DNA of 64,000 nt, taken from positions 620,001 through 684,000 of the forward strand of contig NZ_JAIVMG010000001.1 of the NCBI RefSeq assembly GCF_020177335.1. The letters are read 5' to 3'. This DNA is from Stappia indica. GTDB taxonomy: Bacteria; Pseudomonadota; Alphaproteobacteria; Rhizobiales; Stappiaceae. Shown in pieces: positions 18,602 through 35,361 of this stretch. The notes beneath the pieces are model-generated. The model was not told the origin of the DNA, made no database searches, and saw only the letters and a program-made list of their open reading frames with translations. Positions within the stretch are counted from its first letter, which is position 1. The number at the start of each line of letters is the position of its first letter. Position numbers and translations under genes: made by a program.

Positions 18602-19246
18602 TCAGGTGAAGGTCATGCGCCGGCGCGGCCGCTTCGCCGGACGTTCGACCGGTTGGGCGCGCGGCGCCTCCGCTGCGGGGATGGGCGCTTCGGGCTCCGC
18701 CACGGCTTGGGCCAGCTTCTCGTCCGGTTCATCGGCCGGCGCCCCTTCCTGCGCGGCAACCGCCTCCGCCGGTTGAGGCGCGGCATCCGGGGCGTCGCTT
18801 GCGGCCGCCTTGCGGGCGGCGTCCAGCTCCTCACCCTTGCGCCGATACCCCTTGCCCACCTCCCAGGCGGTCTTCAGGCCTTCGCCGAGGGATTTCACAT
18901 CGCGGAAATCCCCGTCGTAATCGTTCAGCCCGTCGACACAGGCAAGCACGGGATTGGACCGCCACAGCCGGCGCAACGCGGCATTCTTCAAGGAGGCCGG
19001 CACCCCCTTCTTGAGGAAGACCGAATAGTCGGAGTCAAAGGTCAGCGTTTCCAGATCGACAGCCTCCGCCGCCGCCCGGTTTTCCGCTTCAAGCCGCGCC
19101 TCTTCCGCGTCAGCCGGCACAGTCTCGTCGGCATCATCCGGTTCCAGCGCCGCAGCCTCTTCCGGTCGTTCGGCGTCCTCCGCCCGCGCCGCCTGCTTGC
19201 GCCGGGACCAGCGGGTCAGGAATCCAGAGGTATCCTCGCCGCTCAT
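18602..19246 (-). CDS. DUF3306 family protein, formate dehydrogenase-associated
   Basis: A 214-aa soluble protein with the DUF3306 signature: FLTRWSRRKQAAR at the N terminus, an acidic linker, then YSVFLKKGVPASLKNAALRRLWRSNPVLACVDGLNDYDGDF. The C-terminal half is alanine- and proline-rich low-complexity sequence ending in a basic cluster (PAKRPRRR). DUF3306 genes occur with FDH clusters in alpha- and betaproteobacteria. Its ATG overlaps the stop of the DUF3305 gene by 4 bp, so the two are translationally coupled. The molecular function is unknown. Confidence 0.9.
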   Translation of the reverse strand: MSGEDTSGFLTRWSRRKQAARAEDAERPEEAAALEPDDADETVPADAEEARLEAENRAAAEAVDLETLTFDSDYSVFLKKGVPASLKNAALRRLWRSNPVLACVDGLNDYDGDFRDVKSLGEGLKTAWEVGKGYRRKGEELDAARKAAASDAPDAAPQPAEAVAAQEGAPADEPDEKLAQAVAEPEAPIPAAEAPRAQPVERPAKRPRRRMTFT

Positions 19247-19794
19247 GTCGGCTCCTCTCCTTCTTGCCCGGCCCCGCCCCTCGCCGGCGCCTTGAAGATC
19301 GGCGTCTTACCGAACAGCTGCACCTCGTCCGGCATCCGGTCGCGCCGCCGTTTGCGAAAGGCCGGCGCCTCCGGCAGGCACTTCAGATACTCCGCCATCC
19401 AGGCGATTACCGCCCGCGGCATCGGCACCCGCTCCACCAGCCCCTCGCCGCTGTCGAGGAAGCCGATGGCCTGATGCGGATCGGCGGTGATGGCCGCCAC
19501 CCGCCAGCCGGGATCCTCCGGCCCGTCCGCCTCGTTCAGCAGCACCCAGAGACAAGGCTCGCCCGTCTCGATGTTGCTGTCATAGGCCTCGACCATCTTG
19601 TGATGCAGGGTCAGGCGATGGGGCGCGGACAGGTAGCGGCGCATCTCGCCGCGTGCCTCGATCTCGCGCCAGCCATCCGTTGCCGGCGCCTCGACGATCA
19701 CCTCCGGGACGGACCAGACCCAATCCGACCAGCGCGAGGTGGCCGGCCGGCGCTCCAGCACGATCCCGAATGAGAGCGACACTTCCCGTTGCAC
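19243..19794 (-). CDS. DUF3305 family protein, formate dehydrogenase-associated
   Basis: A 183-aa soluble protein matching DUF3305: a start like VSLSFGIVLERRPATSRWSDWVWSV, then APHRLTLHHKMVEAYDSNIE, PCLWVLLNE and VERVPMPRAVIAWMAEYL. It is coupled to DUF3306 (4-bp overlap) and divergent from the ferredoxin protein at 20013, sharing a 218-bp intergenic region. The start is a GTG without a strong ribosome-binding site, so the first residues are uncertain. No catalytic motif is visible; an FDH maturation or assembly role is inferred from conserved co-occurrence. Confidence 0.88.
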   Translation of the reverse strand: MQREVSLSFGIVLERRPATSRWSDWVWSVPEVIVEAPATDGWREIEARGEMRRYLSAPHRLTLHHKMVEAYDSNIETGEPCLWVLLNEADGPEDPGWRVAAITADPHQAIGFLDSGEGLVERVPMPRAVIAWMAEYLKCLPEAPAFRKRRRDRMPDEVQLFGKTPIFKAPARGGAGQEGEEPT

Positions 19795-20012
19795 GATCCG
19801 GCTCCAGATACTGTGGTACGGCCCTACAGGCGCAAACTGATGCGGCCCGTGGTTCTTCTGATTGTGGGGCGCTCAAGAGCATTTGACAATGGCGTGCGAA
19901 CATCGCCGGACAGCGGCACGGTTCTGCGTTATTGTTCTGGCAAATCAGCTTTTCGCGGCGCAGCGCCCGTCTCAGCAGCCGGGCCGTGGCGTCGCCGACG
20001 GAGACCCCGCGC

Positions 20013-22049
20013 ATGACCACGCCCCGGCCTCGGATCCTTCTGTGCAACTGCCAGCGAACGATGCGCCTCGATGCAAAACGCATCGCCGGGATCGACGACG
20101 ACACGCCGGTCCACAGCCACCTGTGCCGCAGCCAGCTTGCCGCCTTCGAGACCGCGCTTGCCGGCGATGCGCCGCTGCTGGTCGCCTGCACCCAAGAAGC
20201 GCCGCTCTTTTCGGAAATCGCCGAGGACGCCGACAGGCACGACGACGTCGGCTTCGTCAACATTCGCGAGCGCGCCGGCTGGTGCGACAGCGGTACCGAC
20301 CCGCATCCGAAGATCGCCGCGCTTCTGGCCGAGGCGCAGCTTGCCAGCGAACCGGCACCGCTGCATTCGGTGGACTCGGACGGGGTCTGCCTCGTCTATG
20401 GCGCCGGCCAGCAGGCGCTGGACACCGCCCGCGCCCTGGAAGGCCGGCTGGCGGTCTCGCTGCTTCTCACCGACGCGGACGATCTTCTGTTGCCGCCTGT
20501 GCTCGACGTGCCGATCCATCGGGGCCGGATCCGCACGGTGACCGGTTCGCTCGGCGGGTTTTCGGTGACCGTCGACGACTATGCGCAGATGCTGCCCTCC
20601 TCGCGGCAGGCACCGGAGTTCGATCTGCCCCGCGATGGCGCCCGCTCCACTTGCGCGCTGATCCTCGACCTGTCCGGCGACACCCCGCTGGTCACCGCCC
20701 CGGACAAGCGCGACGGCTATCTGCGGGCCGACCCGAAAGACCCGGCGGCGGTCGCACGGGCGATGTTCGACATCTCCGACATGGTCGGCAGCTTCGAGAA
20801 GCCCCGCTATGTCGGCTACGCGCCGGAGATCTGTGCCCATGGCCGCAGCGGCAAGACCGGTTGCCACAAATGTCTCGACGCCTGCCCGGCCGGGGCCATC
20901 GAGAGTGCCGGCGATACCATCGCCATCGATCCGGGCATCTGCGGCGGCTGCGGCTCCTGCGCCGCCCACTGCCCCACCGGCGCCATCGCCTATCAATACC
21001 CCAAGCGGTCGGACCTGATCGGCCGCATCCAGACCCTGCTCCTGACCTATACCGGCGCCGGCGGGCAGGATCCGGTGCTGCTCTTGCATGACCAGACCCA
21101 TGGGCTTGACCTGATTTCGGCGCTCAGCCGGCAGGGGGCCGGTCTTCCCGGCAACGTCCTGCCGCTCGGCGTTCATGCGGTCAGCGGCTTCGGTCATGAC
21201 GCCTTGCTGGCGGCGGTTCTGGCCGGTGCCCGGCGGCTGGTGGTGCTGGCTTCGCCAAAGCTTTCCGGGGAACTTGATCCCTTGCGCGCCGAGATCGACC
21301 TGGCCACCGCGCTTCTTTCCGGCATGGGCTATCCGGCGGATCATCTTTTTGACATTGCACTTGAAACAGACCCGGACGCACTGCCGGCCCATCTCAGCCT
21401 CACTGGCCCGGCGCCGGCGCTTCCCGGCAGCCTGTTCGCCCCGGTCGGCGGCAAGCGGGATGTCGCCCGTAGCGCCATTGCCCGGCTGCTCGATCAGGCC
21501 CCCGCCCCGGCGGAGATCATCGTCCTGCCGGACAGCGCGCCCTATGGCCGGATCCGGATCGATGCCGAGGGCTGCACCCTCTGTCTTGCCTGTGTCTCGT
21601 CCTGTCCCGCCAATGCGCTGGCCGACAATCCGGAGAAGCCGCAGGTGAGCCTGACGGAAGCGGCCTGCGTGCAATGCGGCCTGTGCGCGGCCACCTGTCC
21701 GGAACACGTGATCACGCTGGAGCCTCGTTACAACAGCGCGCCAAGTGCCATGCGTCCGGTGGTGCTACATGAGGAGGAGCCGGCGCTCTGCGCCTCCTGC
21801 GGCAAGCCGTTCGGCACCAAATCCTCGATTGCCCGGATCCGGGAGAAGCTGTCCGGCAAGCACTGGATGTTCCAGCGCGCGGATCAGATCGCCCTCATCG
21901 ACATGTGCGACGATTGCCGGATCAGCGCCCAATGGACCATGCCGGACACACCGCTGCGCGGCGGCGCCCGACCGCGCCCGGTCACCACCGACGACTATCT
22001 CGCCGCCCGGGAGGAACTCTCTGCCGACGATTTCCTCAAGGACGACTGA
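20013..22049 (+). CDS. Multi-cluster 4Fe-4S ferredoxin protein of the formate dehydrogenase region
   Basis: A 678-aa cytosolic iron-sulfur protein. Two ferredoxin cassettes are each built from two clusters: CHKCLDACPAGAI with CGGCGSCAAHCPTGAI near the middle, and CTLCLACVSSCPANAL with CVQCGLCAATCPEHVI near the C terminus. Additional cysteines occur at the N terminus (LLCNCQRTM, HLCRSQL, VACTQE) and C terminus (CASCGKPFG, MCDDC), the last pair looking like a zinc or rubredoxin-like knuckle. Proteins of this layout sit next to DUF3305/DUF3306 and FDH genes. It may deliver electrons or sulfur during FDH maturation, or link FDH to a cytosolic pool; neither is shown. The ATG at 20013 begins the conserved region. 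Confidence 0.88.
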   Translation: MTTPRPRILLCNCQRTMRLDAKRIAGIDDDTPVHSHLCRSQLAAFETALAGDAPLLVACTQEAPLFSEIAEDADRHDDVGFVNIRERAGWCDSGTDPHPKIAALLAEAQLASEPAPLHSVDSDGVCLVYGAGQQALDTARALEGRLAVSLLLTDADDLLLPPVLDVPIHRGRIRTVTGSLGGFSVTVDDYAQMLPSSRQAPEFDLPRDGARSTCALILDLSGDTPLVTAPDKRDGYLRADPKDPAAVARAMFDISDMVGSFEKPRYVGYAPEICAHGRSGKTGCHKCLDACPAGAIESAGDTIAIDPGICGGCGSCAAHCPTGAIAYQYPKRSDLIGRIQTLLLTYTGAGGQDPVLLLHDQTHGLDLISALSRQGAGLPGNVLPLGVHAVSGFGHDALLAAVLAGARRLVVLASPKLSGELDPLRAEIDLATALLSGMGYPADHLFDIALETDPDALPAHLSLTGPAPALPGSLFAPVGGKRDVARSAIARLLDQAPAPAEIIVLPDSAPYGRIRIDAEGCTLCLACVSSCPANALADNPEKPQVSLTEAACVQCGLCAATCPEHVITLEPRYNSAPSAMRPVVLHEEEPALCASCGKPFGTKSSIARIREKLSGKHWMFQRADQIALIDMCDDCRISAQWTMPDTPLRGGARPRPVTTDDYLAAREELSADDFLKDD

Positions 22050-22072: not shown

Positions 22073-22375
22073 TCAGCCATTGCCGGCGGGCGGGTCCAGC
22101 TCCGGGTCGGCAAGGTTCTGACGCAGCATTTCCCGGTAGCGTTCGACCATATCGGTGACGAAGGCTTCGTGCTCGTCGACCTCCAGCACCGCCTTGGCCA
22201 CATGGGCGTTGTAGCGTGCCGCCGCCCAGAGGAAAGCCAGATGCAGGTCGGTCGCCTGGATCTTGCGGTTTTCCCGATTGGCAAGGTCGATGAACCGTGC
22301 CGCCGTCTGCAGAAAGCTTGCAGTGTCGAGCGTCCCCTCCGCCCGCGCCGCGCGCCGTTCCCGTCTGTTGGTCAT
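22073..22375 (-). CDS. DUF3144-like small protein
   Basis: A 100-aa soluble, helical protein. After a basic N terminus (TNRRERRAARAEG) comes FLQTAARFIDLANRENRKI, AFLWAAARYNAHVAKAV and YREMLRQNLADPE, which I take for the DUF3144 pattern (FIxLAN, AAARxNAxV, YRxMLxxNL). The ATG at 22375 has AGGGGGA upstream; the longer frame lies inside the next gene. It starts 64 bp downstream of the MFS transporter stop on the same strand. Function unknown. Confidence 0.75.
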   Translation of the reverse strand: MTNRRERRAARAEGTLDTASFLQTAARFIDLANRENRKIQATDLHLAFLWAAARYNAHVAKAVLEVDEHEAFVTDMVERYREMLRQNLADPELDPPAGNG

Positions 22376-22439: not shown

Positions 22440-23663
22440 TCAGTATTGCTCGGCCTCCAGAACCCGTGCGGCGATGCTGGCGACAACAGACAGGGCGCAG
22501 GCCGTCGCCATGACCAGCACCAGCGGCCAGATCGTGCCCGGCCACAAGATGCCCGACAGCAGCCACCCGGCCACCGCCGAGGCAATGGCGCCGGCACCGA
22601 TCTGCAGGCTGCCGGTCAGGCCGGAAGCCGCACCGGCAAGGTCCGGACGCACGCTCACCGCGCCGGCGATGGCATTAGGCAGGCACATGCCGTTGCCAAC
22701 GCCCACCACGAACATCGGCCCGAACAGCGAAAGTGGGTGGACCAGACCCAGTGCGAAGAACAGGGCGATGACTGATACCGCCAGCACCAGAACCACATTG
22801 CCGGCACCAATCATCCGCACCATGCCGATGGACCCGGAATAGCGGCCGGAAATCCAGTTACCCATAACATAGCCGCCGGCCACCAGGATGAAATAAAGAC
22901 CATAGACCGCAGGTGTCATGCCGAGCAGGTCCGCAGCCACGAAGGGCGCACCGCCGAGAAAGCCGAAGAACACGGCGGAGGTGAAGGCGGAGGTCAGTGC
23001 ATAAGCCCAGAACAACCCGGATCGCGACAGCGCCCCATAGCTGCGCACAAGGCCGGCGATGCCGCCGCCGGAAACCCGGTTGTGATTGGTCTCGTGTAGG
23101 TCGAACCAGGCGGCAACAAGCACCAAGACACCCAGCACCACCATCAGGTAAGAGCTGCTGCGCCAGCCGAAACTCTGATCGACCACGCCGCCGATGGCTG
23201 GCCCGATCATCGGCGCCACCGCCAGACCCATGGTCACATAGCCGATCATGCTGGCCGCCTGGCTGCGATCATAAAGATCTCGGACAATGGCCCGGCCAAG
23301 CACGATCCCGGCGCACCCACCGGTTGCCTGAAGCATCCGCCCCGTCAGCAAGACCTCGATGGAGGGTGCCACCGCGCAGACCACCGATCCGACGACGAAG
23401 ATCGCCAGCCCCCAAAGCAGCACCGGACGCCGGCCATAGCGGTCCGACAGCGGGCCGATGCCAATCTGGGCGACCGCCACCGCCGCCAGATAGAGCGACA
23501 GCGACATCTGGACCATGCCAGTGGTCGTGCCGAAAACATCGACCAGAAGCGGCAAGGACGGCAGGGAGATATTGAGCGCCAACGGATTGACGGCGGACAC
23601 GGCAACGAGGATCGCCAGGGTCGGACGGCGCCCCTCGAAGGTGGTTGAGATGCTATTTGTCAT
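22440..23663 (-). CDS. MFS drug/metabolite exporter, Bcr/CflA type
   Basis: A 407-aa inner-membrane transporter with 12 predicted helices. The N-terminal half has IGPLSDRYGRRPVLLWGL (MFS motif A) and RMLQATGGCAGIVLGRAIVRDLY, which matches the DHA1/Bcr-CflA subfamily. These are proton-driven exporters of drugs, cysteine or other metabolites. The ATG at 23663 with AGGTAA upstream is preferred to a TTG ten codons earlier. It interrupts the run of FDH-associated genes, and nothing ties it to formate metabolism. Confidence 0.9.
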   Translation of the reverse strand: MTNSISTTFEGRRPTLAILVAVSAVNPLALNISLPSLPLLVDVFGTTTGMVQMSLSLYLAAVAVAQIGIGPLSDRYGRRPVLLWGLAIFVVGSVVCAVAPSIEVLLTGRMLQATGGCAGIVLGRAIVRDLYDRSQAASMIGYVTMGLAVAPMIGPAIGGVVDQSFGWRSSSYLMVVLGVLVLVAAWFDLHETNHNRVSGGGIAGLVRSYGALSRSGLFWAYALTSAFTSAVFFGFLGGAPFVAADLLGMTPAVYGLYFILVAGGYVMGNWISGRYSGSIGMVRMIGAGNVVLVLAVSVIALFFALGLVHPLSLFGPMFVVGVGNGMCLPNAIAGAVSVRPDLAGAASGLTGSLQIGAGAIASAVAGWLLSGILWPGTIWPLVLVMATACALSVVASIAARVLEAEQY

Positions 23664-23756
23664 ACCCGTTACCTGAAACGGTTCGCCGGACAAGGCAAGC
23701 TCTTTGCGCCTGTCGGCCCGATGAGCGCCGGCGCCAAGGCACGCCGGACCGAAAAA

Positions 23757-24659
23757 TCACGGCAGCGGCGGGCTGGAGGCCGCCGGCCCGGCCTCCTTCA
23801 TCAGCTTGCGCTCACGCATCAAGGTGTAGATGCCGGTCGCCACCAGGATCGCCACACCGACCAGGGTGTAGAGGTCGGGAATATCGCCCCAGACCAGATA
23901 GCCGATCAGGATTGCCCAGAGGATGATCGAGTAGCGGAACGGCGCCACGACGGCGATGTCACCGGTGCGCATGGCGTGGATCAGGGTGATGTACCCCACC
24001 AAGATGAAACTCGCGGCAGCGGCCAGGAAAACGATATCCAGCAGGCTGGGCATCACCCAGGTTTCGCCCACCGCCATGGCCAGACCGGTCACCGCCACCC
24101 CGGCCAGCGCCGCGAAGGTCACCCCGAGTGTCGGGATGGTCTTGGGCAACAGCGAGGTGCCAAGATCGCGCACCGCCATGCAGACGACCCCGACCAGTGC
24201 CATCAGTGACCAGGCATCGAAGCCGGCAAGTCCGGGCCGGACGATCACCAGAACGCCGAAGAAGCCGACGCCAATCGCGCTCCAGCGGCGCCACCCGACC
24301 GGCGCGCCAAGGAAGACTGCCGCACCGGCGGTGATCATCAGCGGCAGCGCCTGGAGAATGGAGGTGACATTGGCGATCGGCAGGTGGAACAGCGCGGTCA
24401 GGTAGAACACGGTGGCCAGCGCCTCGGTGACCACGCGCAGCACCACGAGCGGGTGCTGCAGGCGGCCGAAATGATAGATCGAGCCATTGGCGAGACAGAT
24501 CCCCAGCAACAGCGCCATGGCGAGCAGCGAGCGCAGGAACATGATCTGACCAAGCGGCAGATGGCTGGAGACGAGCTTGACGAAGCTGTCGTTGAAAATG
24601 AAGCACGCCATGGCGAGCATCATGATGACGACGGCACGGCCGTTGCCTTGAAGGGTCAT
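23757..24659 (-). CDS. DMT superfamily (EamA) transporter
   Basis: A 300-aa membrane protein with ten hydrophobic helices arranged as two EamA repeats (roughly 8-140 and 152-285). Features include FIFNDSFVKLVSS, QIMFLRSLLAMAL and the second-repeat AIRTGD-like segment HAMRTGDIAVVAPFRYS. The family exports metabolites. The ATG at 24659 has AAGG at good spacing; a GTG 12 codons upstream is less likely. It is in the same direction as the MFS gene and DUF6352, probably in one transcript. Substrate unknown. Confidence 0.9.
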   Translation of the reverse strand: MTLQGNGRAVVIMMLAMACFIFNDSFVKLVSSHLPLGQIMFLRSLLAMALLLGICLANGSIYHFGRLQHPLVVLRVVTEALATVFYLTALFHLPIANVTSILQALPLMITAGAAVFLGAPVGWRRWSAIGVGFFGVLVIVRPGLAGFDAWSLMALVGVVCMAVRDLGTSLLPKTIPTLGVTFAALAGVAVTGLAMAVGETWVMPSLLDIVFLAAAASFILVGYITLIHAMRTGDIAVVAPFRYSIILWAILIGYLVWGDIPDLYTLVGVAILVATGIYTLMRERKLMKEAGPAASSPPLP

Positions 24660-24701
24660 ATTCTGCCTTGCGGATAGCGTGGAGCCGGGCCCCACCTGCG
24701 A

Positions 24702-25718
24702 TCAATTGCCCCGCCGCAGCGGGAGGTTGGTCAAAAGGTTTTGCGGTTTCATGCGGATCTTGTCGTCGGCGCCCATCGCCAGCGCCAGCCACACGGGTTT
24801 GCCGCGCATCGTATCGATGACATCGCCGCGCCGCTCGAAATCCAGCCGGAACAGCGCAACGATGCGGGTCAGCTCGGCGTCGCCGACGGTCGCCCCCTCA
24901 TAGAGGCGGTTGAGAATACGGGTGGCCTCGGCGTCCAACCCCACATGCCACGACCACTTCGCATCCCGGATCGACTGTTGCGGCTGAATGCGCACGTCGA
25001 CGCCATGAAAATGCCGAACCCAGCTTTCCAGAACCCGGGCAAAGGCATCGAGCGCCGGTTCGGTGAAACGGAAGTCGATGGCCGTGTCGTAGCGGTCGGA
25101 CCTGTCCCAGTAGATGGCGGCATTTTCCTCGCCGATCACGTCGAGCGAGACGGCACGGGCCGGCGTTCCGGCCTCCGCCAGCAGCGCGCCAAGGCCGCCG
25201 AGCCCGCCGGTTCTTGCGTAGGTCTCGACGATCTCCGCATCGGCCAGCATCAACTGCCCCTCGCCGGTGGTCACCGCCTGTTCCCGGAAGAACAGTTCGC
25301 CCGCGCGCAGCCGCAAGGGATCCGTCACCGAGCGCAGCATGTTGTGGCAGATCAGATGGACCATCTGGTCGATGAACATCGGCGGGATCGCGATTGCCGC
25401 CCCCTTGCCGAACAGGGCCGCATAGGCGCCCTCGATGGTGCCATGCGCGGCCAGATGATCGCGAAAGCCCAGCAGCACCCGGTAATTGTCGGCGGCATCC
25501 GGATCGACGATGGCCGCAAGGTCGGCCTCGCTCACCCCGGCGAAGGGATCGGCCATCAGCTTTTCGAACAGGGCATGTTCGGCTGGGCAAGACTCCTCCA
25601 CCGGATGGATTTCCGGCCGGGTGACATAGGCCCGCAGCAGGTCCGGCGTCACCGTCAGCCAGCCGTTGCCATCGCGGGACACCAGATGCGCGCCGGAGGA
25701 TTTCCAGAACGCCCGCAT
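24702..25718 (-). CDS. DUF6352 family protein, formate dehydrogenase-associated
   Basis: A 338-aa soluble protein. Conserved-looking stretches are FWKSSGAHLVSRDGNGWLTVTPDLLRAY with a break after the N terminus, RPEIHPVEESCPAEHALFE, NYRVLLGFRDHL, HNMLRSVTDPLRLRAGELFFREQ and SWHVGLDAEATRILNRLYEG. I recognise this as the DUF6352 family found in alphaproteobacterial FDH loci. Its ATG overlaps the DUF6505 stop (TGATG), so the two are translationally coupled. No catalytic residues or cofactor motifs stand out. A GTG one codon earlier could also be used. Confidence 0.82.
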   Translation of the reverse strand: MRAFWKSSGAHLVSRDGNGWLTVTPDLLRAYVTRPEIHPVEESCPAEHALFEKLMADPFAGVSEADLAAIVDPDAADNYRVLLGFRDHLAAHGTIEGAYAALFGKGAAIAIPPMFIDQMVHLICHNMLRSVTDPLRLRAGELFFREQAVTTGEGQLMLADAEIVETYARTGGLGGLGALLAEAGTPARAVSLDVIGEENAAIYWDRSDRYDTAIDFRFTEPALDAFARVLESWVRHFHGVDVRIQPQQSIRDAKWSWHVGLDAEATRILNRLYEGATVGDAELTRIVALFRLDFERRGDVIDTMRGKPVWLALAMGADDKIRMKPQNLLTNLPLRRGN

Positions 25719-26203
25719 CACTCGGTCTCGTCCACATCCCAGATGCGGGCATGGGGCGCGTCTTCGGGCGGGGTCACCACCTCGAAGCGCTCATGCACCG
25801 CGCCATCGTCATCGATCTCGCGCAGGATGGTCAGAAGGTCGTTGTCCTCCAGCCCACTGGCGATGTCCATGGCATCGGCGATCTCCGCCTCGGCAACCGG
25901 CAAGGCCGCCTCGCGGCTGGGCGCGCCGTGTTCGGCGACGAAGTGATCGGCCAGCAGCCCGACCAGCCGGTCCCGTTCCTCGTCGGAAATCTCCGCCGGG
26001 GTGGCGAGCGTGGTCCAGCCGAAGGTTCCCAGCGACAGGAAGCCGAAGGCGAACGCCTGCCGGACCTGGCCCGTCAGCCCTTCCGGTGTGTAATTGCGAA
26101 AGGCGAAGGTGCCGGGAATGACCCAGTCGCCCGGCTCGGCGACCTCGGGGAAAATCTGCGTATCGGACTCATCCAGACGGATGGCTTTCAGAAGTCGTGC
26201 CAT
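25718..26203 (-). CDS. DUF6505 family protein, formate dehydrogenase-associated
   Basis: A 161-aa soluble protein: LLKAIRLDESDTQIFPEVAEPGDWVIPGTFAF with a pause, then QAFAFGFLSLGTFGWTTLATPAEISDEERDRL and HFVAEHGAPSREAALPVAEAEI. This matches the DUF6505 pattern from FDH regions. It begins 2 bp after the stop of the ligase-like gene and overlaps DUF6352, so the three are one transcription unit. It is acidic (many D/E) and contains no cysteine, making a scaffolding or regulatory role more likely than metal binding; function unknown. Confidence 0.82.
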   Translation of the reverse strand: MARLLKAIRLDESDTQIFPEVAEPGDWVIPGTFAFRNYTPEGLTGQVRQAFAFGFLSLGTFGWTTLATPAEISDEERDRLVGLLADHFVAEHGAPSREAALPVAEAEIADAMDIASGLEDNDLLTILREIDDDGAVHERFEVVTPPEDAPHARIWDVDETE

Positions 26204-27183: not shown

Positions 27184-27375
27184 TCAATCCAGGTCGATCT
27201 TGCCGGTGACCACATGCTCGAACTCCTGACCGTCGAGGGTGAACACCACCTTCGCCGACAGGCTGCCGCTGGTCAGCCCGGCATCTCGCACATGGGCTTC
27301 GAGCGCCTGCTGCGAGGTCACGCCGACCTGTTTCAGGAACTTGCGCATGGACATGTTGAAGGTGTCGCTGGTCAT
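27184..27375 (-). CDS. DUF6494 family small protein
   Basis: A 63-aa soluble protein: TFNMSMRKFLKQVGVTSQQALE, then KVVFTLDGQEFEHVVTGKIDLD. This is the DUF6494 pattern (FNMSxRKFLKxVGVxSQ and a C-terminal beta hairpin). The ATG at 27375 is preceded by GAGGAG; the longer frame is less likely. It lies 180 bp downstream of the small membrane protein of the FDH operon. The members are common in alphaproteobacteria, and the function is unknown. Confidence 0.82.
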   Translation of the reverse strand: MTSDTFNMSMRKFLKQVGVTSQQALEAHVRDAGLTSGSLSAKVVFTLDGQEFEHVVTGKIDLD

Positions 27376-27555: not shown

Positions 27556-27732
27556 TCACCTGTCCGATTGGTTCGCAGGCCGCGTGCCATCGCCCGGCGA
27601 CAGGCGGACCGCGCCGGGGGTCTGGGTGGTGTAGACCGCCGAGGAGGAGTAATCGAAGCCCTTGTTCAGCACCGCCCAGGCGCCGATGCCGATGGCGGCC
27701 ATCACCACCACTGCGCTCAAGAATGCCTTCAT
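27556..27732 (-). CDS. Small single-pass membrane protein at the end of the FDH operon
   Basis: A 58-aa protein. Residues 4-22 (FLSAVVVMAAIGIGAWAVL) form a transmembrane or uncleaved signal helix. The short periplasmic tail is SSSAVYTTQTPGAVRLSPG and ends in polar residues. The ATG overlaps the stop of the WD40-cytochrome c gene by 4 bp (ATGA), so the two are translationally coupled. I see no family match. Size and position suggest a small subunit or anchor for the cytochrome or the dehydrogenase. Confidence 0.75.
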   Translation of the reverse strand: MKAFLSAVVVMAAIGIGAWAVLNKGFDYSSSAVYTTQTPGAVRLSPGDGTRPANQSDR

Positions 27733-29150
27733 CGTCTCTCGTCCTCTGCTTGGCCGGCCGGTGGCTGGCCCGGCGCCGGCATCCCCTTTGGGGCCGTCGC
27801 GCGTTTGAGATAGGCCACCAGAGCCCTGCGCTCTTCCTGGTCGGTCAGGCGCTGTAGCGGCATCTTCGACCCCGGCGTCACCAGATCCGGACCGCGAGCG
27901 AAGAGATCCGACACGGTCTCTTCCGTCCAGATGAACCCGGCCTCTCGCAAGGCCTTCGAATAGGGATACCCGGGCAGGCTGCCCGCCCGCCGTCCGAACA
28001 GGCCATGGAGGGTCGGCCCGGCGCGGTTGCCATCCGCCGGCGTCAGCGTATGGCAAACCGAGCATTTGCGCGCGAACTGCCGCGCGCCCGGATCCCCGGT
28101 CTCGCCCACCTGAAACCGCCGGGGCGCGCTCTGCCCGCTGTCATCGAAGGCGACGCGCGGGTTCACCTGCCAGACGCTGACATGATCATCGAGCCCGACA
28201 TGTAAGGCCCGGCGGCCATCCCTGTTCAACGCCAAACCCCAGACCGGCCCATGCGGGTTGTCATAGGCCTCCAGCAGATGCCAGTCGTCGGTGGCATAGA
28301 CCCGGATCGCCCCGTCGCCACCGCCACCGGCAAGCCGGCGCCCATCGGCGGACAAGGCCAGCGCCAGCACCGGCCGCGTATGGCTGGCGAGCTGTTTGAC
28401 GATTTCGCCGCTCAAAGGATCGAGCACCGCCAGCGTGCCATCGGCCGCGCCAAACACCAGCCGCCGGCCATCCCCGGTCAGCGCCAGCACGTTGACACCC
28501 CAGCCATGGCGGTACACCTCGCGCAGCAAGCCGCCGGTGGCCCGGTCGAACAAGCGGATGCCGCCATCATAGGCAGCGGTGTAGACCCCTGCCCCGTCCG
28601 GCGTGATCGCCACCGCGTTGACCGGGCCGCGATGCCCCTCAAGCCGGGGGGCTTCGACAAGCCTGTCACCGGCAAGGGCGAAGACCCGCGCGGTGTGGTC
28701 CCAGGAGGCGGCCACGACGAAGTTGCCATCGGGTGCGGCCCGCACCTGGATCAGCTTTTCCTCGCCGGTGTCGACCCGGTCCAGCACCTGCCCCGTCCCC
28801 AACCCCCAGAGCAGGATGGCGCCATCGTCGCCAACGGACACCGCCCGGTCTGCGGGGAGGAAACGGACATCGTTCACCGGTGCGTCATGACCGATCAGGC
28901 GATGGACCACGCCCGCGCCCTGATCCTGCCGCTGCCAGAGGATGACCGAATAATCGAAGGAGGCGGACAAGGCCCGGGTCTCGTCCCGCGACAGGACGAT
29001 GGACTTGACCGGTCCGCCATGACCCTCAAGCCGGCCGGACCACTCCGCCGCCACCACCGCGGTCGGCGCCTGCGACACGACGAGTGCGGCGGCAGCCGAG
29101 GCAAAGGCCGCCCGGGCAAACCGTCCAGCCAGGGGCGCGGCCCGCCACAT
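27729..29150 (-). CDS. WD40 beta-propeller fused to cytochrome c
   Basis: A 473-aa exported protein. The signal peptide covers about 1-35 (AVVAA). Residues 40-330 form about seven WD40-like blades (for example GHGGPVKSIVLSRDETRALS, GHDAPVNDVRFLPADRAVS, GHRGPVNAVAITPDG, HTRPVLALALSADGRRLAG). The C-terminal 345-460 is a class I cytochrome c with CSVCH (Cys363, Cys366, His367) and the sixth ligand Met430 in TPGSKMPLQRL. It begins 5 bp after the fdh gamma stop. The likely role is a periplasmic electron carrier docked by a propeller, either an alternative outlet from FDH or a partner in assembly; this is inferred from position. Confidence 0.92.
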   Translation of the reverse strand: MWRAAPLAGRFARAAFASAAAALVVSQAPTAVVAAEWSGRLEGHGGPVKSIVLSRDETRALSASFDYSVILWQRQDQGAGVVHRLIGHDAPVNDVRFLPADRAVSVGDDGAILLWGLGTGQVLDRVDTGEEKLIQVRAAPDGNFVVAASWDHTARVFALAGDRLVEAPRLEGHRGPVNAVAITPDGAGVYTAAYDGGIRLFDRATGGLLREVYRHGWGVNVLALTGDGRRLVFGAADGTLAVLDPLSGEIVKQLASHTRPVLALALSADGRRLAGGGGDGAIRVYATDDWHLLEAYDNPHGPVWGLALNRDGRRALHVGLDDHVSVWQVNPRVAFDDSGQSAPRRFQVGETGDPGARQFARKCSVCHTLTPADGNRAGPTLHGLFGRRAGSLPGYPYSKALREAGFIWTEETVSDLFARGPDLVTPGSKMPLQRLTDQEERRALVAYLKRATAPKGMPAPGQPPAGQAEDERR

Positions 29151-29155: not shown

Positions 29156-30313
29156 CTACTCCGCCGCCTGTGTCGCGCCCGTGCCGGCGCCCTTCTGACG
29201 TGCCAGCACCTCTTCCACCCAGAGCGAATGGTGCTCCCTCGCCCAGTTGAGATCGACCTCACCGGACCCCATCGCATCAAACGCGCCCTCCATACCGAGG
29301 GAGCCGATGTAGATGTGGCCGATGATCACACAGATCAGCACGACGCTCATGATCGAGTGCCAGAGGCTGGCGAGCTGCTGCTCCTGCACCACGGTCAGCG
29401 GCACCGGCAGGCTGGCGCCGAACAGGCTGTTGATCACCTCGAACGTCCCGCCGAAGAAATGAGTGGTGTAAGGGAACAGCAACGACCAGCCGGACAGGGA
29501 AATGGAGAGGCCGACCAGGACCGTCGCCCAGAAGATCAGCTTCTGTCCGGCGTTGAACTTCTTCGCCGGCGGATGAAGGCGCTTGGAAAAGAGACCGCCG
29601 GCCTGCAGGATCCACTTTATGTCGGTCCGGTCCGGCAGGTTATGGCGCACCCACATCAGGAAGATGAGAGCCAGACCGGCCATGAAGGCAAAGGCCAGAT
29701 AGTTGTGCAGATACTTGCCCAAGGCGGTGACGGCGCCAAAGGCATCCGCGCCGATGACCGGTAGCAGGACATAGCGCCCGTACATCACGTTGAGCCCGGT
29801 CAGCGCCAGAATGATGAAGGAGGTGGCCAGCAGCCAGTGCCCGAAACGCTCGACCGCCAGAAAGCGGGTGATGGTCCGCTCGCTGCGGCCATGCTCGATG
29901 CGGATACGGCCGCGAATGGCGAAGAACAGCGCCAGGATCACGATCATCGCCAGCAAGGCCCAGCTGGCATAAAGCGCCAGCGGACCATTGCGCACCGCCC
30001 GCCACAGCTCGCCCTCGGACTGCACCAGCGTCGCGGCCTTCTTGTCCGGGATCGATACCTTGCCATCCGCCCCCTGGCGCACCGCCCGCCAGAAATCGGA
30101 ATCCGACGTGGTCCCGAGGGTGTTGCCCGGCACCATGCCGCCGGTGGGGGACGCTGCCGCCGGCACCTCTTTGGTGCCCTGCTGGGCCAGCGCCGACCCG
30201 CCCTGCCCAATGGCAAACACCATCGCCGACAGCACCAGAACCAGGGCCGCAATCCCACGCCACGCCCAACGCCCTTTGCTGGCTCCGGTACATCCGTTCC
30301 GCATTCTCAGCAT
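29156..30313 (-). CDS. fdhC: Formate dehydrogenase gamma subunit (cytochrome b556)
   Basis: A 385-aa membrane subunit that anchors FDH and passes electrons to quinone. It has an N-terminal signal-like helix (about 16-36), a periplasmic stretch of ~75 residues with FWRAVRQGADGKVS and a related LWRAVRNG, and four further helices (about 115-136, 155-177, 198-222, 262-286, with a last one near 318-340). Haem-ligand histidines occur in ERFGHWLLATSF, KYLHNYLAFAFMAG and HSIMSVVLICVIIGHIYIG. The extended periplasmic N terminus is usual for the FDH3/FdoI-like gamma of this clade. The operon order is beta, lipoprotein, gamma, WD40-cytochrome c. Confidence 0.95.
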   Translation of the reverse strand: MLRMRNGCTGASKGRWAWRGIAALVLVLSAMVFAIGQGGSALAQQGTKEVPAAASPTGGMVPGNTLGTTSDSDFWRAVRQGADGKVSIPDKKAATLVQSEGELWRAVRNGPLALYASWALLAMIVILALFFAIRGRIRIEHGRSERTITRFLAVERFGHWLLATSFIILALTGLNVMYGRYVLLPVIGADAFGAVTALGKYLHNYLAFAFMAGLALIFLMWVRHNLPDRTDIKWILQAGGLFSKRLHPPAKKFNAGQKLIFWATVLVGLSISLSGWSLLFPYTTHFFGGTFEVINSLFGASLPVPLTVVQEQQLASLWHSIMSVVLICVIIGHIYIGSLGMEGAFDAMGSGEVDLNWAREHHSLWVEEVLARQKGAGTGATQAAE

Positions 30314-30431: not shown

Positions 30432-30629
30432 CTAGAACCGCTGGCGCTCGCCGCGCTGGCGCAACTCCCGGCGTTGTTCCTCGGTCAGTTCGGTATCGCT
30501 GGCCCCGGCGTAGACGCCCTTTTCCAGTCCGAGAACACGGTTCTGCTCATCTTCGCGGCAGCCCGGCACGGCTGCCAGAAGCACGCCGGCCAGCGCAAGC
30601 ACCGGCCACGGTCCCAAACCCGATCTCAC
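30432..30629 (-). CDS. Small lipoprotein of the formate dehydrogenase operon
   Basis: A 65-aa protein starting at a GTG preceded by AAAGGAG. The N terminus SGLGPWPVLALAGVLLAAVPGC ends in a lipobox cysteine (VPGC); cut here to its key residues, the acceptor is Cys24. The mature 42 residues are charged, with LTEEQRRELRQRGERQRF at the end. It lies between the beta and gamma genes, separated by 118 and 156 bp. No family name is known to me. A lipid-anchored helix beside a periplasmic dehydrogenase suggests a stabilising or assembly part. Confidence 0.7.
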   Translation of the reverse strand: MRSGLGPWPVLALAGVLLAAVPGCREDEQNRVLGLEKGVYAGASDTELTEEQRRELRQRGERQRF

Positions 30630-30785: not shown

Positions 30786-31385
30786 CTAGATGTTACCGGC
30801 CTTCTGTTCGTAGGCGGTGCCCCAGCCCCAGGCGCCGGAGCCAAACCCACGGGCAACGATGCGCTCGCGGTAGATCGCCGAAACCACATCGCCATCGCCG
30901 GCCAGAAGCGCCTTGGTCGAACACATCTCGGCACAGAGCGGCAGTTTGCCCTCGGCCAGACGGTTGCGGCCGTATTTGGCGTATTCGGCCGAGGAATTGT
31001 CCGCCTCCGGCCCGCCGGCGCAGAAGGTGCATTTGTCCATCTTGCCGCGCGAGCCGAAATTGCCGGCCTGCGGATACTGAGGCGCGCCGAAGGGACAGGC
31101 GTAGAAGCAGTAGCCGCAGCCGATACACAGATCCTTGGAGTGCAGCACCACCCCTTCATCGGTCTGATAGAAGCAATCGACCGGACAGACCGCCATGCAG
31201 GGCGCGTCCGAGCAATGCATGCAGGCCACCGAGATGGAGCGCTCACCCGGCTTGCCGTCCTGGATGGTAACCACCCGGCGCCGGTTGATGCCCCAGGGCA
31301 CCTCATGCTCGTTCTTGCAGGCAGTGACGCAGGCGTTGCACTCGATGCAGCGCTCGGCGTCGCAGAGGAATTTCATCCGTGCCAT
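30786..31385 (-). CDS. fdhB: Formate dehydrogenase beta subunit (4Fe-4S protein)
   Basis: A 199-aa electron-transfer subunit with four [4Fe-4S] clusters. The cysteine groups are CIECNACVTACKNEH, CMHCSDAPCMAVCPVDC, CIGCGYCFYACPFGAP and the split set CTFCAGG with CAEMC. The order and the short length match the FDH3 type of beta subunit. It lacks an export signal and must cross the membrane with the Tat-exported alpha subunit. It starts 12 bp after the alpha stop. The C terminus GSGAWGWGTAYEQKAGNI has no membrane helix, so anchoring is by gamma. Confidence 0.96.
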   Translation of the reverse strand: MARMKFLCDAERCIECNACVTACKNEHEVPWGINRRRVVTIQDGKPGERSISVACMHCSDAPCMAVCPVDCFYQTDEGVVLHSKDLCIGCGYCFYACPFGAPQYPQAGNFGSRGKMDKCTFCAGGPEADNSSAEYAKYGRNRLAEGKLPLCAEMCSTKALLAGDGDVVSAIYRERIVARGFGSGAWGWGTAYEQKAGNI

Positions 31386-31397: not shown

Positions 31398-34271
31398 TTA
31401 CGCCGCGCGCTCGATACGGCACAGCGTGGCCTTGGTTTCCTGCATCTGGGTGACGGAATCGTAGCCGTAGGTCTGCGCCGTGTTCGACGCCTCGCCCAAC
31501 ACATAAGGGTCCGCCCCCTTCGGGTATTTCGACCTGCGGTCCTCGCCCTGGAAATGACCGCCGAAGTGGAACGGCATGAAGGCAACGCCCTCGCCGACCC
31601 GCTCGGTCACCATCGCCATCACCTTGACCTTGCCGCCTTCCGGCCCATGCACCCAGACCATCTCGCCATCGCGAATGCCCAGGTTGTTGGCATCGCGCGG
31701 ATTGATCTCGACAAACATGTCCTGCTGCAGCTCGGCCAGCCACGGGTTGGACCGGGTTTCGTCGCCGCCGCCCTCGTATTCGACCAGCCGCCCCGACGTC
31801 AGGATCATCGGGAACTCGCCCGAGAAGTCCTTTTCCTGGATCGACTTGTAGGCGGTCGGCAGACGCCAGAACACCTTGTCGTCATAGGTGGCATATTTGT
31901 CGAGCAGGTCGCGCCGGTTGGTGTAGAGCGGCTCCCGGTGCAGCGGCACCGGGTCGGGGAAAGTCCAGACCACCACACGCGCCTTGGCATTGCCGAAGGG
32001 CGCGCAGCCGTGCTTGATCGCGACCCGTTGGATACCGCCGGACAGGTCGGTCTTCCAGTTGGTCTTCTCCCCGGCCACCGCGTCGATGGCGGCCCGCTCC
32101 TCGTCGGTCAAGTCACCGTCCCAGCCAAGCTTCTGCAGCATGGCCATGGTGAACTCCGGATAGCCATCCTCGATTTCCGAGCCGGCCGACCAGGAGCCTT
32201 CGGCCAGAAGGTTGTCGCCATCGCGTTCGGTACCGAAGCGGGCGCGGAAGGTCAGACCGCCCTCGGCCACCGACTTGGACGGATCGTAGAGGATCGGCGT
32301 GCCCGGATGCTTCATCTCCGCCGTCCCCCAGCAGGGCCAGGGCATGCCGTAATAATCGCCGTCGCACGGCCCGCCGCGCGCCTCCAGCGTGGTGCGGTCG
32401 AATGTGTGCTGATTGGCCATGTGCAGTTTCAGCCGCTCCGGCGACTGGCCGGTGTAGCCGATGGTCCACATGCCGCGATTGAACTCGCGGGTCAGGTCCT
32501 CGATCAGCGGCTCCTCGCCATTCACCTCGATGTTCTTGAACATCTCGTCGGCAAAGCCGAACTTCACCGCGAACTTGTGGGCGATGGTGTGATCGGGCAG
32601 GGATTCGAACAGCGGATCGAAGATCGCCTCGCGCCACTGCAACGAACGGTTGGAAGCGGTGACCGATCCGTAGGTCTCGAACTGGGTGGCCGCCGGCAGC
32701 AGGTAGACATTGTCGGTACGGTCCGACAGCACCGCCGACATGGTCGGATAGGGATCGATCACGACCATCAGGTCGAGCTTCTCCATCGCCACCTTCATGT
32801 CCGGGAGCCGGGTCTGCGAATTCGGGGCATGACCCCACAGCACCATCGCCCGCACATTGTCCGGCTGCTGGATGTTCTCCTTGTCCTCAAGCACGCCGTC
32901 GATCCAGCGTGACACCGGAATGCCGGAGCTTTCCATCAGCTCCTTGGAGCCGAACCGGCTGAGCAGGAAGTCGTAGTCGACATCCCAAACCCGGGACCAG
33001 TGCTTCCAGGAGCCTTCCGACAGCCCGTAATAGCCCGGCAGCGTATCGGCCAGCACGCCGAGATCGGTGGCCCCTTGCACATTGTCATGACCGCGGAAGA
33101 TGTTGGTACCGCCACCCGCCTTGCCCATGTTGCCGAGCGCCAGCTGCAGCACACAATAGGCCCGGGTGTTGTTGTTGCCGTTCGAGTGCTGGGTGCCGCC
33201 CATGCACCAGATCACGGTGCCGGGCCGGTTGTTCACCAGCGTGCGCGCCACGCGCCGAAGCTGCGAGCCGGGAACGCCGGTCACCCGCTCGGTCTCTTCC
33301 GGCGTCCATTTCGCCACCTCCGCACGGATCTGCTCCATGCCCCATACGCGCTGGCGGATGAATTCCCGGTCTTCCCAGCTGTTTTCGAAAATGTGCCAGA
33401 GAATGCCCCAGACCAGCGCCACGTCCGTTCCCGGCCGCATCCGCACATACTCCGACGCATGGGCCGCGGTGCGGGTGAAGCGCGGATCGCAGACGATCAG
33501 CGGCGCGTTGTTCTCTTCCTTCGCCTTCAACAGATGCAGCAGCGAGACCGGATGGGCCTCGGCCGGATTTCCGCCGATCAGGAAGATCGCTCGGCTGTTG
33601 TGAATGTCATTGTAGGAATTGGTCATCGCCCCGTAGCCCCAGGTGTTGGCAACACCTGCGACCGTGGTGGAGTGACAGATCCGGGCCTGATGGTCGACGT
33701 TGTTCGTACCCCAGAAGGCGGCGAACTTGCGCACCAGATAGGCCTGCTCGTTGCTGTGCTTGGCCGAGCCGAGCCAGTAGACGCTGTCCGGACCGCTTTC
33801 CTCGCGGATCTTCATCATCTGGTCGCCGATCTCGTCGATCGCCTGATCCCAGGAGATCCGCTCCCATTTGCCGTTGACCAGCTTGGTCGGGTATTTCAGC
33901 CGCCGCTCGCCATGGGCGTGCTCGCGTACCGAGGCGCCCTTGGCGCAATGGGAACCGAGGTTGAACGGGCTGTCGAAGCCGGGCTCCTGTCCGGTCCAGA
34001 CCCCGTCCTGCACCTCGGCCAGCACCGTGCAGCCGACCGAACAATGGGTGCAGACCGATTTCTTGATCTCGACCTTCGCCGATGTCGGCCCGGCGGCCTC
34101 CGCCTTGCGCACCATGCCGCCCGTCAGGGCGCCGGCGGCGGCAAGACCGCCCGCCGCGAGACCGGAACGGCGCAGAAAGGCACGGCGGTCCATCGCACTC
34201 GTGCCGATGGCCTCGATTGCCGATGACAACCGGGTCCGACGGGCCGTCGCGCTCGTCTTCTTCCTCAGCAT
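31398..34271 (-). CDS. fdhA: Formate dehydrogenase alpha subunit, molybdopterin, Cys-type
   Basis: A 957-aa catalytic subunit that oxidises formate to CO2 in the periplasm. The Tat signal is DRRAFLRRSGLAAGGLA (about 28-44) after an unusually long cytoplasmic lead of 27 residues. One [4Fe-4S] cluster is bound by Cys74, Cys77, Cys81 (CTHCSVGC) and Cys109 (GSHCAKG). The metal ligand is Cys199 with His200 in ARICHSTT, in place of the selenocysteine used by enteric FdhF/FdnG. Molybdopterin regions include AIFLIGGNPAEAHPVSLLH and WCMGGTQHSNGNNNTRAYC. It ends in a dinucleotide-binding domain with MILTSGRLVEYEGGGDETRSN. AGGGAG precedes the ATG. It needs FdhD, the TorD-like protein and mobA/mobB/moeA products. 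Confidence 0.97.
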   Translation of the reverse strand: MLRKKTSATARRTRLSSAIEAIGTSAMDRRAFLRRSGLAAGGLAAAGALTGGMVRKAEAAGPTSAKVEIKKSVCTHCSVGCTVLAEVQDGVWTGQEPGFDSPFNLGSHCAKGASVREHAHGERRLKYPTKLVNGKWERISWDQAIDEIGDQMMKIREESGPDSVYWLGSAKHSNEQAYLVRKFAAFWGTNNVDHQARICHSTTVAGVANTWGYGAMTNSYNDIHNSRAIFLIGGNPAEAHPVSLLHLLKAKEENNAPLIVCDPRFTRTAAHASEYVRMRPGTDVALVWGILWHIFENSWEDREFIRQRVWGMEQIRAEVAKWTPEETERVTGVPGSQLRRVARTLVNNRPGTVIWCMGGTQHSNGNNNTRAYCVLQLALGNMGKAGGGTNIFRGHDNVQGATDLGVLADTLPGYYGLSEGSWKHWSRVWDVDYDFLLSRFGSKELMESSGIPVSRWIDGVLEDKENIQQPDNVRAMVLWGHAPNSQTRLPDMKVAMEKLDLMVVIDPYPTMSAVLSDRTDNVYLLPAATQFETYGSVTASNRSLQWREAIFDPLFESLPDHTIAHKFAVKFGFADEMFKNIEVNGEEPLIEDLTREFNRGMWTIGYTGQSPERLKLHMANQHTFDRTTLEARGGPCDGDYYGMPWPCWGTAEMKHPGTPILYDPSKSVAEGGLTFRARFGTERDGDNLLAEGSWSAGSEIEDGYPEFTMAMLQKLGWDGDLTDEERAAIDAVAGEKTNWKTDLSGGIQRVAIKHGCAPFGNAKARVVVWTFPDPVPLHREPLYTNRRDLLDKYATYDDKVFWRLPTAYKSIQEKDFSGEFPMILTSGRLVEYEGGGDETRSNPWLAELQQDMFVEINPRDANNLGIRDGEMVWVHGPEGGKVKVMAMVTERVGEGVAFMPFHFGGHFQGEDRRSKYPKGADPYVLGEASNTAQTYGYDSVTQMQETKATLCRIERAA

Positions 34272-34360
34272 CTCGTTTCTCCCTCAGTCGCGCGCTCAAG
34301 CGATCCAGCCGACGCGCCCCGGCGCCCCGCACAAGAACGGGCGCGCCACATGGTGTCGTT

Positions 34361-34564
34361 TCAGAAGCGGGCGCTGGCGTAGAACGCCTTCACATGCTCG
34401 GTCTCGCGATAGCCGGCCGCCGTCTCGGACGGCGTTTCGGCCGCCTGCGCGGCACCGCCAACCAGCGTCGCCGACCCGGCCACCGCGCCAAGCCCGGCAA
34501 GCTTGAGAAACCCGCGCCGATCCGCCTCGATACCGGCGTCGTGCCCGTTGTTCTTCCGCGTCAT
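34361..34564 (-). CDS. Formate dehydrogenase region Tat-target small protein
   Basis: A 67-aa protein whose N-terminal 40 residues are a Tat signal (EADRRGFLKLAGLGAVAGSA) and whose mature part is only about 25 residues (AAETPSETAAGYRETEHVKAFYASARF in outline, ending in F). This is the FDH-region Tat target family (TIGR02811-like). The ATG at 34564 has GAGGAG at 6-nt spacing; the longer frame includes MKIETIEETG and is possible. It sits between the chaperone and the alpha subunit. The tail may ride with the enzyme during export; function unknown. Confidence 0.88.
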   Translation of the reverse strand: MTRKNNGHDAGIEADRRGFLKLAGLGAVAGSATLVGGAAQAAETPSETAAGYRETEHVKAFYASARF

Positions 34565-34665
34565 GCCCGTCTCCTCGATCGTCTCGATCTTCATCCGTCG
34601 GCGTCTGACAACGCCAGGTTCATCACATTTCACGTCTCACTCCGGCTCACGCGCACCGCGCGCCG

Positions 34666-35361
34666 TCAGCCTACGGGACCTTCATCGCCCGTGGCCCGCT
34701 CCGACGCGAACAGCGCATCGGCCTGCTCTTCCAGATCCAGAAACACCTGTCCCAGCCGGCCGAGCGCCGGGTACAGCCGACCCGTGGTCGAAGCCGCCAG
34801 ATCCTTGAAGAAATAGGGAGCCCAGTTACCCAGATGCGCCCGGAAGAAATGCCCTTGCGCGGCAGGGGCGCCCGGATCGCCGAAGCTGCCGTCGATCAGG
34901 CCGGCCATGATCTGACACAGCGCGGCGATGTGATCCTCCGGCTCGCGCACGGACGGGTCGCGTTCGACGCCAAGCCGGCGCATCTCCTGGCGCAGCAACG
35001 CCAGCGGCTTTTCGTTGAGAAAACCGGTCAGGTAGTAGGAGGCGTAGGGCACAAGCTCGCCGCGCCCGACGCCGATGAACAGGTCGTGATACTCCCGCGC
35101 GGCCCGTTCCGGCGTGGTGCCGGCGGCCGCCGAGGCCAGATCGGACAGTGCCTCGCCAATCGGTCCGCCACCGCTTCCGGGCAAGGCGCTGACGACCGTC
35201 AGCCAGTCGCGCGTCACCGGCGCTTCCAGCGCGCTGGCGAGAATGCCATAAAGCGCTGCCCGGTCCCGATCTTCCGGCGCGATGCGCGCGGGATCAGGCG
35301 CAGGGACACGCTCCGGTGTCGTTATATTGGGCCCGTCGGGATTCATTGCTGCAGCCGTCAT
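34666..35361 (-). CDS. TorD/DmsD-like molecular chaperone for formate dehydrogenase
   Basis: A 231-aa cytosolic all-helical chaperone. Key stretches are DRAALYGILASALEAPVT, REYHDLFIGVGRGELVPYASYYLTGFL (the TorD E-x-x-x-LF-G...P-x-x-S-Y pattern, broken here for length) and EDHIAALCQIMAGLI (EPEDHI is the hallmark). It binds the Tat signal of the alpha subunit until the cofactor is in. It is the first gene of the FDH operon and lies right behind the promoter at 35384-35412. The ribosome-binding site is GGAGGAGGGAG; a second ATG five codons in is an alternative start. Confidence 0.92.
   Translation of the reverse strand: MTAAAMNPDGPNITTPERVPAPDPARIAPEDRDRAALYGILASALEAPVTRDWLTVVSALPGSGGGPIGEALSDLASAAAGTTPERAAREYHDLFIGVGRGELVPYASYYLTGFLNEKPLALLRQEMRRLGVERDPSVREPEDHIAALCQIMAGLIDGSFGDPGAPAAQGHFFRAHLGNWAPYFFKDLAASTTGRLYPALGRLGQVFLDLEEQADALFASERATGDEGPVG

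Follow-up and report, generated by a model that had tools for sequence, protein, structure and literature searches.

Uncharacterised proteins beside an FDH3-type formate dehydrogenase of Stappia indica: a probable cytosolic maturation set with a less constant envelope part

The window analysed here is a stretch of 64,000 nucleotides from Stappia indica (C1:620001-684000 of a 4.66 Mb genome; positions below are those of the window), and the subject of this report is its FDH3-type formate dehydrogenase (FDH) together with the uncharacterised proteins encoded around it, which most likely comprise a cytosolic maturation set specific to FDH3 that takes the place of FdhE, and an envelope part that is less constant. 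Read on the minus strand from position 35361, the gene order is torD, fdhX, fdhA, fdhB, a lipoprotein gene, fdhC, a WD40-cytochrome c gene, a small membrane protein gene, DUF6494, a ligase-fold protein gene, DUF6505, DUF6352, EamA, MFS and DUF3144; beyond DUF3144 a polyferredoxin is encoded on the plus strand, and after it DUF3305-DUF3306 on the minus strand. The enzyme core is encoded entirely on the minus strand: FdhA (31398-34271), a catalytic subunit of the Cys type with the twin-arginine translocation (Tat) motif DRRAFLRR; FdhB (30786-31385; NF038355, 343.8 bits, cut-off 240); the cytochrome b subunit FdhC (29156-30313; TIGR01583, 147.4 bits, cut-off 115.85); and FdhX, a formate dehydrogenase region TAT target (34361-34594; TIGR02811, 50.7 bits, cut-off 48.45). 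By its beta score above the NF038355 cut-off the enzyme is assigned to FDH3, and a Tat-motif alpha subunit, a cytochrome b subunit and a TIGR02811 protein were found together in a single run. The Tat motif in FdhA predicts that the mature enzyme is periplasmic.

The accessory proteins nearest to the interpretation are likewise encoded on the minus strand, except the polyferredoxin. TorD (34666-35361; PF02613, 104 bits) belongs to the NarJ/TorD chaperones by its PF02613 match and its place beside a Tat-motif molybdoenzyme. DUF3306 (18602-19246; PF11748, 87.1 bits) and DUF3305 (19243-19794; PF11749, 111.7 bits) have genes that share a 4 bp overlap. The polyferredoxin, with an HdrA-like N-terminal domain, occupies 19932-22049 on the plus strand, an ATG at 20013 being the more probable start. 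DUF6352 (24702-25721; PF19879, 287.8 bits; ATG at 25718 or GTG at 25721), DUF6505 (25718-26203; PF20115, 161.6 bits) and the ligase-fold protein, a putative pseudo-biotin-ligase (26206-26991; PF16917, 211 bits), are encoded by coupled genes spaced at -4 and +2 bp. The overlap and this coupled run, both described in an earlier sequence-only reading of the window, were confirmed, and every piece that it had named within 17 kb of the FDH core was recovered. No signal-like or membrane-like segment was found in the window's DUF3305, DUF3306, TorD, DUF6352, DUF6505 or ligase-fold protein, and the suggestion that such proteins wire the enzyme for this reason does not fit the four DUF proteins.

Family searches were made in one set of 194 Pseudomonadota genomes, with FDH3 scored as present where a beta subunit exceeded the NF038355 cut-off and the polyferredoxin at E<=1e-40. 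FDH3 beta, DUF3305, DUF3306 and the polyferredoxin were each found in 35 genomes, and the four genome sets were identical, the three accessory proteins occurring in 35/35 FDH3 genomes and in 0/159 others. The FDH3 beta scores fall into two well-separated groups, the weakest positive having 314.7 bits and the next match 99.0. In each of the six families that mix genomes with and without FDH3 (f2, f3, f16, f30, f38 and f51), the four profiles coincide. Neither DUF3305 nor DUF3306 was present in any of the 14 control genomes. Regarding formate dehydrogenase in general, TIGR01591 was above cut-off in 93/194 genomes, 62 of them without FDH3, and DUF3305, DUF3306 and the polyferredoxin were present in 0/62 of the latter; they are therefore not general formate dehydrogenase factors. 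In G159, FDH3 beta, DUF3305 and DUF3306 are each present twice, and the polyferredoxin once.

DUF6505 was found in 19, the ligase-fold protein in 18 (matches of >=165 bits) and DUF6352 in 13 of the 194 genomes, all within the 35 with FDH3. The next ligase-fold match, in G016 (95.9 bits), was rejected as a pseudo-ligase carrier; this PF16917 match contains GRGRQGR and KWPND and is BirA, so that the count is 18 and not 19. DUF6494 was found in 13/194 genomes, 11 with FDH3 and two without (G105, G151), and must therefore have another life as well. Linkage is not the whole reason for these co-occurrences, since DUF6352 is unlinked and still accompanied by FDH3 in G016, G019, G160 and G179: in G016 it lies ~280 kb and DUF6505 ~380 kb from FDH3, and in the other three genomes, which are without DUF6505 and ligase-fold protein, its distance to FDH3 along the contig is ~180 kb (G160), ~745 kb (G179) and ~2.8 Mb (G019).

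Gene order was surveyed at two depths. An alignment scan of genome contigs for DUF6352 gave 273 matches; the 80 best of these were retained and therefore represent close relatives (by title mostly Hyphomicrobiales, with a few labelled Rhodospirillales, Sneathiella, Rhodobacteraceae or higher ranks). Where >=9 kb upstream were available (58 loci), fdhA, fdhB, fdhC and the ligase-fold gene were present in 58/58, fdhX in 55, DUF6494 in 54, torD in 53, the WD40-cytochrome c gene in 52 and DUF6505 in 49; where >=4.5 kb downstream were available (63 loci), the polyferredoxin and DUF3305 were present in 56 each and DUF3306 in 55. Given 58/58 loci, the clustering of the block exceeds chance. The wider survey covered 36 FDH3 stretches of 20 kb from 34 genomes (G159 and G185 contributing two each; G000 not included), with score thresholds set by the analyst. 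Here fdhA, fdhB and fdhC were present in all 36, TorD and DUF3305 in 35, DUF3306 and fdhX in 34, the polyferredoxin in 33, fdhD in 18, the ligase-fold protein and DUF6505 in 17 each, the WD40-cytochrome c in 12, DUF6352 in 8, DUF6494 in 6, the small membrane protein in 5 and the lipoprotein in 1. One locus (L221) was below the DUF3306 threshold, yet its genome (G177) has DUF3306.

The association proposed by the sequence-only reading is thus real, and its single accessory system resolves into four layers instead of a uniform block: a constant cytosolic core (DUF3305, DUF3306, polyferredoxin and TorD); an optional cytosolic module (the ligase-fold protein with DUF6505, to which DUF6352 is often added); an envelope part that varies between loci (WD40-cytochrome c, small membrane protein and lipoprotein, with a trypsin-PDZ protease in relatives); and bystanders (EamA, MFS and DUF3144). 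Its expectation that the families track FDH held for DUF3305, DUF3306, the polyferredoxin, the ligase-fold protein, DUF6505 and DUF6352, which among the 194 genomes occurred only with FDH3, and more loosely for DUF6494 (11/13); frequent occurrence without fdhA, which it had named as one outcome that would speak against it, was not seen for those six families in that set.

Regarding the core, DUF3306 is charged and of low hydrophobicity, with a single conserved stretch at about residues 64-131. It is naturally fused to TorD in a Bradyrhizobium genome, in a single reading frame directly after DUF3305, and protein P0121 carries both Pfam domains. In a search with the fused protein, which 5971 proteins passed, both domains were present in 120/120 best-listed clusters, query included, a listing that favours fused matches because the query is itself fused. 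In the second FDH3 copy of one genome (L215:5539-6633), DUF3306 and TorD share a single frame. The AlphaFold2 (AF2) model of DUF3305 (mean pLDDT 90.9) is an alpha/beta domain for which Foldseek matched no solved structure in the PDB at E<=0.001. DUF3305 aligns with positions 222-372 of NF011058 (MobA with DUF3305) at 72.3 bits, under the cut-off of 820. A MobA-DUF3305 gene fusion was considered and rejected, with no MobA match in any DUF3305 frame of 49 fetched stretches, and is kept as weak support only.

The polyferredoxin has conserved Cys sets at 38/40/65/86, 301-347, 548-589 and 620/623/659/662, which fit a CxC...C...C site, ferredoxin clusters and two closing CX2C pairs. For its N-terminal 260 residues HdrA was the sole significant profile match (E 3.1e-6, partial), with an alignment that spans only ~115 residues there plus a ferredoxin-like region. 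As to a possible FAD site, the match reaches a GxG-like stretch around residue 151. In FDH3 genomes that belong to other classes and lie outside family f42, the protein aligns mainly over the later two thirds. Over spans of 19 residues its hydropathy peaks at 1.61, at an internal position. HdrA distributes electrons, and the HdrA-like domain and the many conserved cluster-binding cysteines both speak for an electron branch, in which the polyferredoxin and its partners would connect FDH3 with an acceptor in the cytoplasm or supply electrons for CO2 reduction. This explanation is nevertheless considered rather doubtful: the Tat motif of FdhA predicts a periplasmic mature enzyme, out of reach of such partners, DUF3306 is fused to a maturation chaperone, conserved Cys and His are absent from DUF3305 and DUF3306, and an MvhD-like middle region, which on inspection the polyferredoxin had seemed to contain, was rejected when its profile search gave only acrylyl-CoA reductase (E 0.14).

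Regarding the optional module, PDB 3bfm aligns with the ligase-fold protein over residues 7-229 (E 2.6e-44). The columns of the GRGRxGR-type loop, the biotin/ATP loop of biotin protein ligases, are empty in 93/93 ligase-fold orthologues. The KWPND lysine and the catalytic lysine of such ligases are absent in 91/93 and 88/93, respectively, the latter being present in 5/93 and replaced by arginine in the window protein. Three BirA controls were chosen by GRGR and are therefore circular for the loop feature; in a broader control of 12 weaker PF16917 loci, of which 7 were readable, KWPND was found in 7/7 and a G[RK]GRxGR loop in 4/7. The protein thus has the marks of a pseudo-biotin-ligase without the biotin loop. 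DUF6352 of the window is 97 % identical to its Stappia taiwanensis counterpart, and its AF2 model (mean pLDDT 92.2) was matched by no solved structure (Foldseek versus PDB, E<=0.001). A tie of the module to selenocysteine versus cysteine FdhA was rejected, the active-site motif reading Cys in all 36 fetched FDH3 loci.

The envelope part is encoded on the minus strand by genes for the lipoprotein (65 aa, 30432-30629), the small membrane protein (58 aa, 27556-27732) and a predicted periplasmic protein combining a WD40 propeller with cytochrome c (27729-29150; PF00400, PF00034); DUF6494 (63 aa; PF20104, 88.5 bits) lies next to them at 27184-27375 on the same strand. In the 80 DUF6352 loci, with incomplete loci counted, the small membrane protein was present in 26 and the lipoprotein in 37. 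A trypsin-PDZ protease-like gene was recognized by motif before DUF6494 in 47/69 testable DUF6352 loci, and the one scanned (L062:7516-8490) was confirmed by Pfam as trypsin plus PDZ. This protease is what recommends a role in expression or quality control, in which the cytosolic DUF proteins would detect formate or the state of the cofactor and regulate how FDH3 is made or turned over. Such a role is judged unlikely: the protease is not at that place in the window, its profile had no match in 49 wider stretches, and a DNA-binding family was named for none of the scanned parts.

Inside the span, and unnamed by the sequence-only reading, lie MFS (22440-23693), EamA (23757-24695) and DUF3144 (22073-22375), which were found in 18, 18 and 38, respectively, of the 63 downstream DUF6352 loci and in 0/36 of the wider FDH3 loci; they look like neighbours only. 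That the block as a whole is a case of hitchhiking, its genes being neighbours by common inheritance without shared function, probably holds for these three and draws on the strongly conserved gene order of the 80 closest loci, but it is very improbable for the core, since co-occurrence persists without linkage (DUF6352 and DUF6505 in G016; DUF6352 in G019, G160 and G179) and spans 12 families, six of them of mixed presence. Seven neighbour proteins of unlinked DUF6352 genes, from three stretches, showed no shared theme (transglycosylase, MFS, nuclease, beta-helix, diacylglycerol kinase and two without family). A small, membrane-anchored protein (18245-18577, plus strand) has one hydrophobic N-terminal segment; its kind often directly follows DUF6352 in relatives and was found in 36 of the 63 downstream loci.

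Molybdenum-cofactor genes flank the block on both sides: moaA (17244-18242) on one, and a run of fdhD-mobA-mobB-moeA (38468-41853, plus strand; PF02634, 254.6 bits; PF12804, PF03205, PF03453) on the other. Between the block and this run lies an Mrp/ApbC iron-sulfur carrier gene (35741-36943, minus strand; PF10609, 343.4 bits), which was present in 13/36 FDH3 loci and adjoins the ligase-fold gene in other lineages. Two BLUF blue-light sensors (PF04940, 53.5 and 82.4 bits; 37193-37693 and 37843-38310, plus strand) are encoded between the Mrp gene and fdhD. Outside the block are an L,D-transpeptidase (YkuD, 89.1 bits; 15807-16499, minus strand) and a weak cytochrome c match (15168-15764, plus strand; PF00034, 19.3 bits, below the cut-off of 21.3). 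Rfam gave no match at gathering score within the window, and PHROGs none for four DUF proteins.

FdhE (PF04216) was searched for in the FDH3 genomes, with E. coli as positive control, and was found in 1/35; G000 had no PF04216 match. According to the available part of a recent review (PMC10609526), fdhE consistently accompanies the operons that encode periplasmic formate dehydrogenases. In this sample FDH3 is, by profile search, an exception to that association.

The association of the families with FDH3 is observed directly, and the maturation role is inferred from it: the cytosolic set probably assembles and checks the cofactor-bearing subunits of FDH3 in the cytoplasm before Tat export. TorD would hold the Tat signal of FdhA, and DUF3306, whose fusion to TorD is a plain observation, may serve as a flexible adaptor tying TorD to DUF3305. 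DUF3305 would stand on the molybdenum-cofactor side and recruit or receive the bis-MGD supply, and the polyferredoxin may pass electrons or clusters to immature FdhA-FdhB to give an export-competent enzyme. The core set would in this way do for FDH3 what FdhE does in E. coli. In about half of FDH3 genomes the pseudo-biotin-ligase and DUF6505, often with DUF6352, could provide a second, later, non-catalytic chaperone or scaffold step, and FdhX, the WD40-cytochrome c, the lipoprotein and the small membrane protein would act after export, in anchoring or electron exit. A bolder and more tentative version is a hitherto undescribed FdhE-independent machine in which an HdrA-derived polyferredoxin might reductively activate a Mo/W-bis-MGD enzyme docked via TorD-DUF3306-DUF3305, with the biotin-ligase fold as a non-catalytic holder of cofactor or client.

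Several observations weigh against a maturation set of this kind. The Fisher p of 2.3e-39 for the four-way co-occurrence is uncorrected for descent and is overstated because the sampled genomes are related. Among the 35 FDH3 genomes, 17 are without the ligase-fold protein, 16 without DUF6505 and 22 without DUF6352, so that the optional module, missing from nearly half of them, is not needed everywhere. One FDH3 genome (G189) does have FdhE, ~2.2 Mb from its FDH3, and in G016 the polyferredoxin lies ~38 kb from FDH3. The second FDH3 of G185 (L217) is without TorD, DUF3305, DUF3306 and polyferredoxin within 20 kb, and another second copy (L215) is without polyferredoxin and fdhX within the same distance; the core genes missing at both stand beside the other FDH3 copy of each genome. 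The MobA link of DUF3305 rests on the name of a curated model, whose cut-off (NF011058, MobA-DUF3305) was exceeded in 0/114 alphaproteobacterial genomes, and MobA and DUF3305 parts were found in one stretch only in G288, with a stop codon between them. The polyferredoxin may act as a partner in electron transfer and not as a maturase, and the ties of all these proteins to FdhA are predicted ones.

A functional study of DUF3305, DUF3306, DUF6352, DUF6505 or DUF6494 was not found in the open-licence papers searched, where these family names occurred in two papers, one of them off the subject by its title, nor were the four-way profile, the chaperone fusion, the FdhE exception, the pseudo-ligase reading or the HdrA domain; the available parts of PMC12445348, PMC4585668 and PMC13397495 hold nothing on these families. 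Should the maturation reading be true, several uncharacterised families would share one testable function, and exported formate dehydrogenases would have at least two separate maturation routes, with and without FdhE. Metal-dependent formate dehydrogenases are sought after for CO2 reduction, and producing them in foreign hosts is difficult. If FDH3 depends on these proteins, expressing them together with the enzyme would directly test why heterologous production of FDH3 might fail.

Compared with known systems, the predicted set resembles the FdhE system of E. coli in that non-exported factors serve an exported formate dehydrogenase, and the four CX2C motifs of FdhE, as given in the available part of PMC10609526, may be set beside the two conserved CX2C pairs in which the polyferredoxin ends; it differs in that FdhE is missing from 34/35 FDH3 genomes, where a different protein set is constant. 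Like the NarJ/DmsD/TorD chaperones, including FdhM of C. jejuni (same part of PMC10609526), a TorD-family gene adjoins fdhX-fdhA and a Tat-motif catalytic subunit, whereas here TorD is accompanied by DUF3305, DUF3306 and the polyferredoxin, and relatives have it fused to DUF3306. FdhX1 is termed a formate dehydrogenase-specific chaperone in the available part of PMC4585668. The ligase-fold protein shares the fold family PF16917 with BirA and with PDB 3bfm ('biotin protein ligase-like protein of unknown function'), and it departs from BirA in the loop, the KWPND lysine and the catalytic lysine. The N-terminal part of the polyferredoxin is like HdrA of heterodisulfide reductase, and the rest of the protein is different. 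The recurrence of such families with FDH genes, noted in the sequence-only reading, has been in print since 2015 for the DUF3305/DUF3306 pair, which the available part of PMC4464133 places beside dmsD-fdhGHI operons; there the pair is found at 60 % of such operons, as against 35/35 FDH3 genomes here, and is described as putative membrane proteins, in contrast to DUF3305 and DUF3306 of the window, in which no membrane segment was found.

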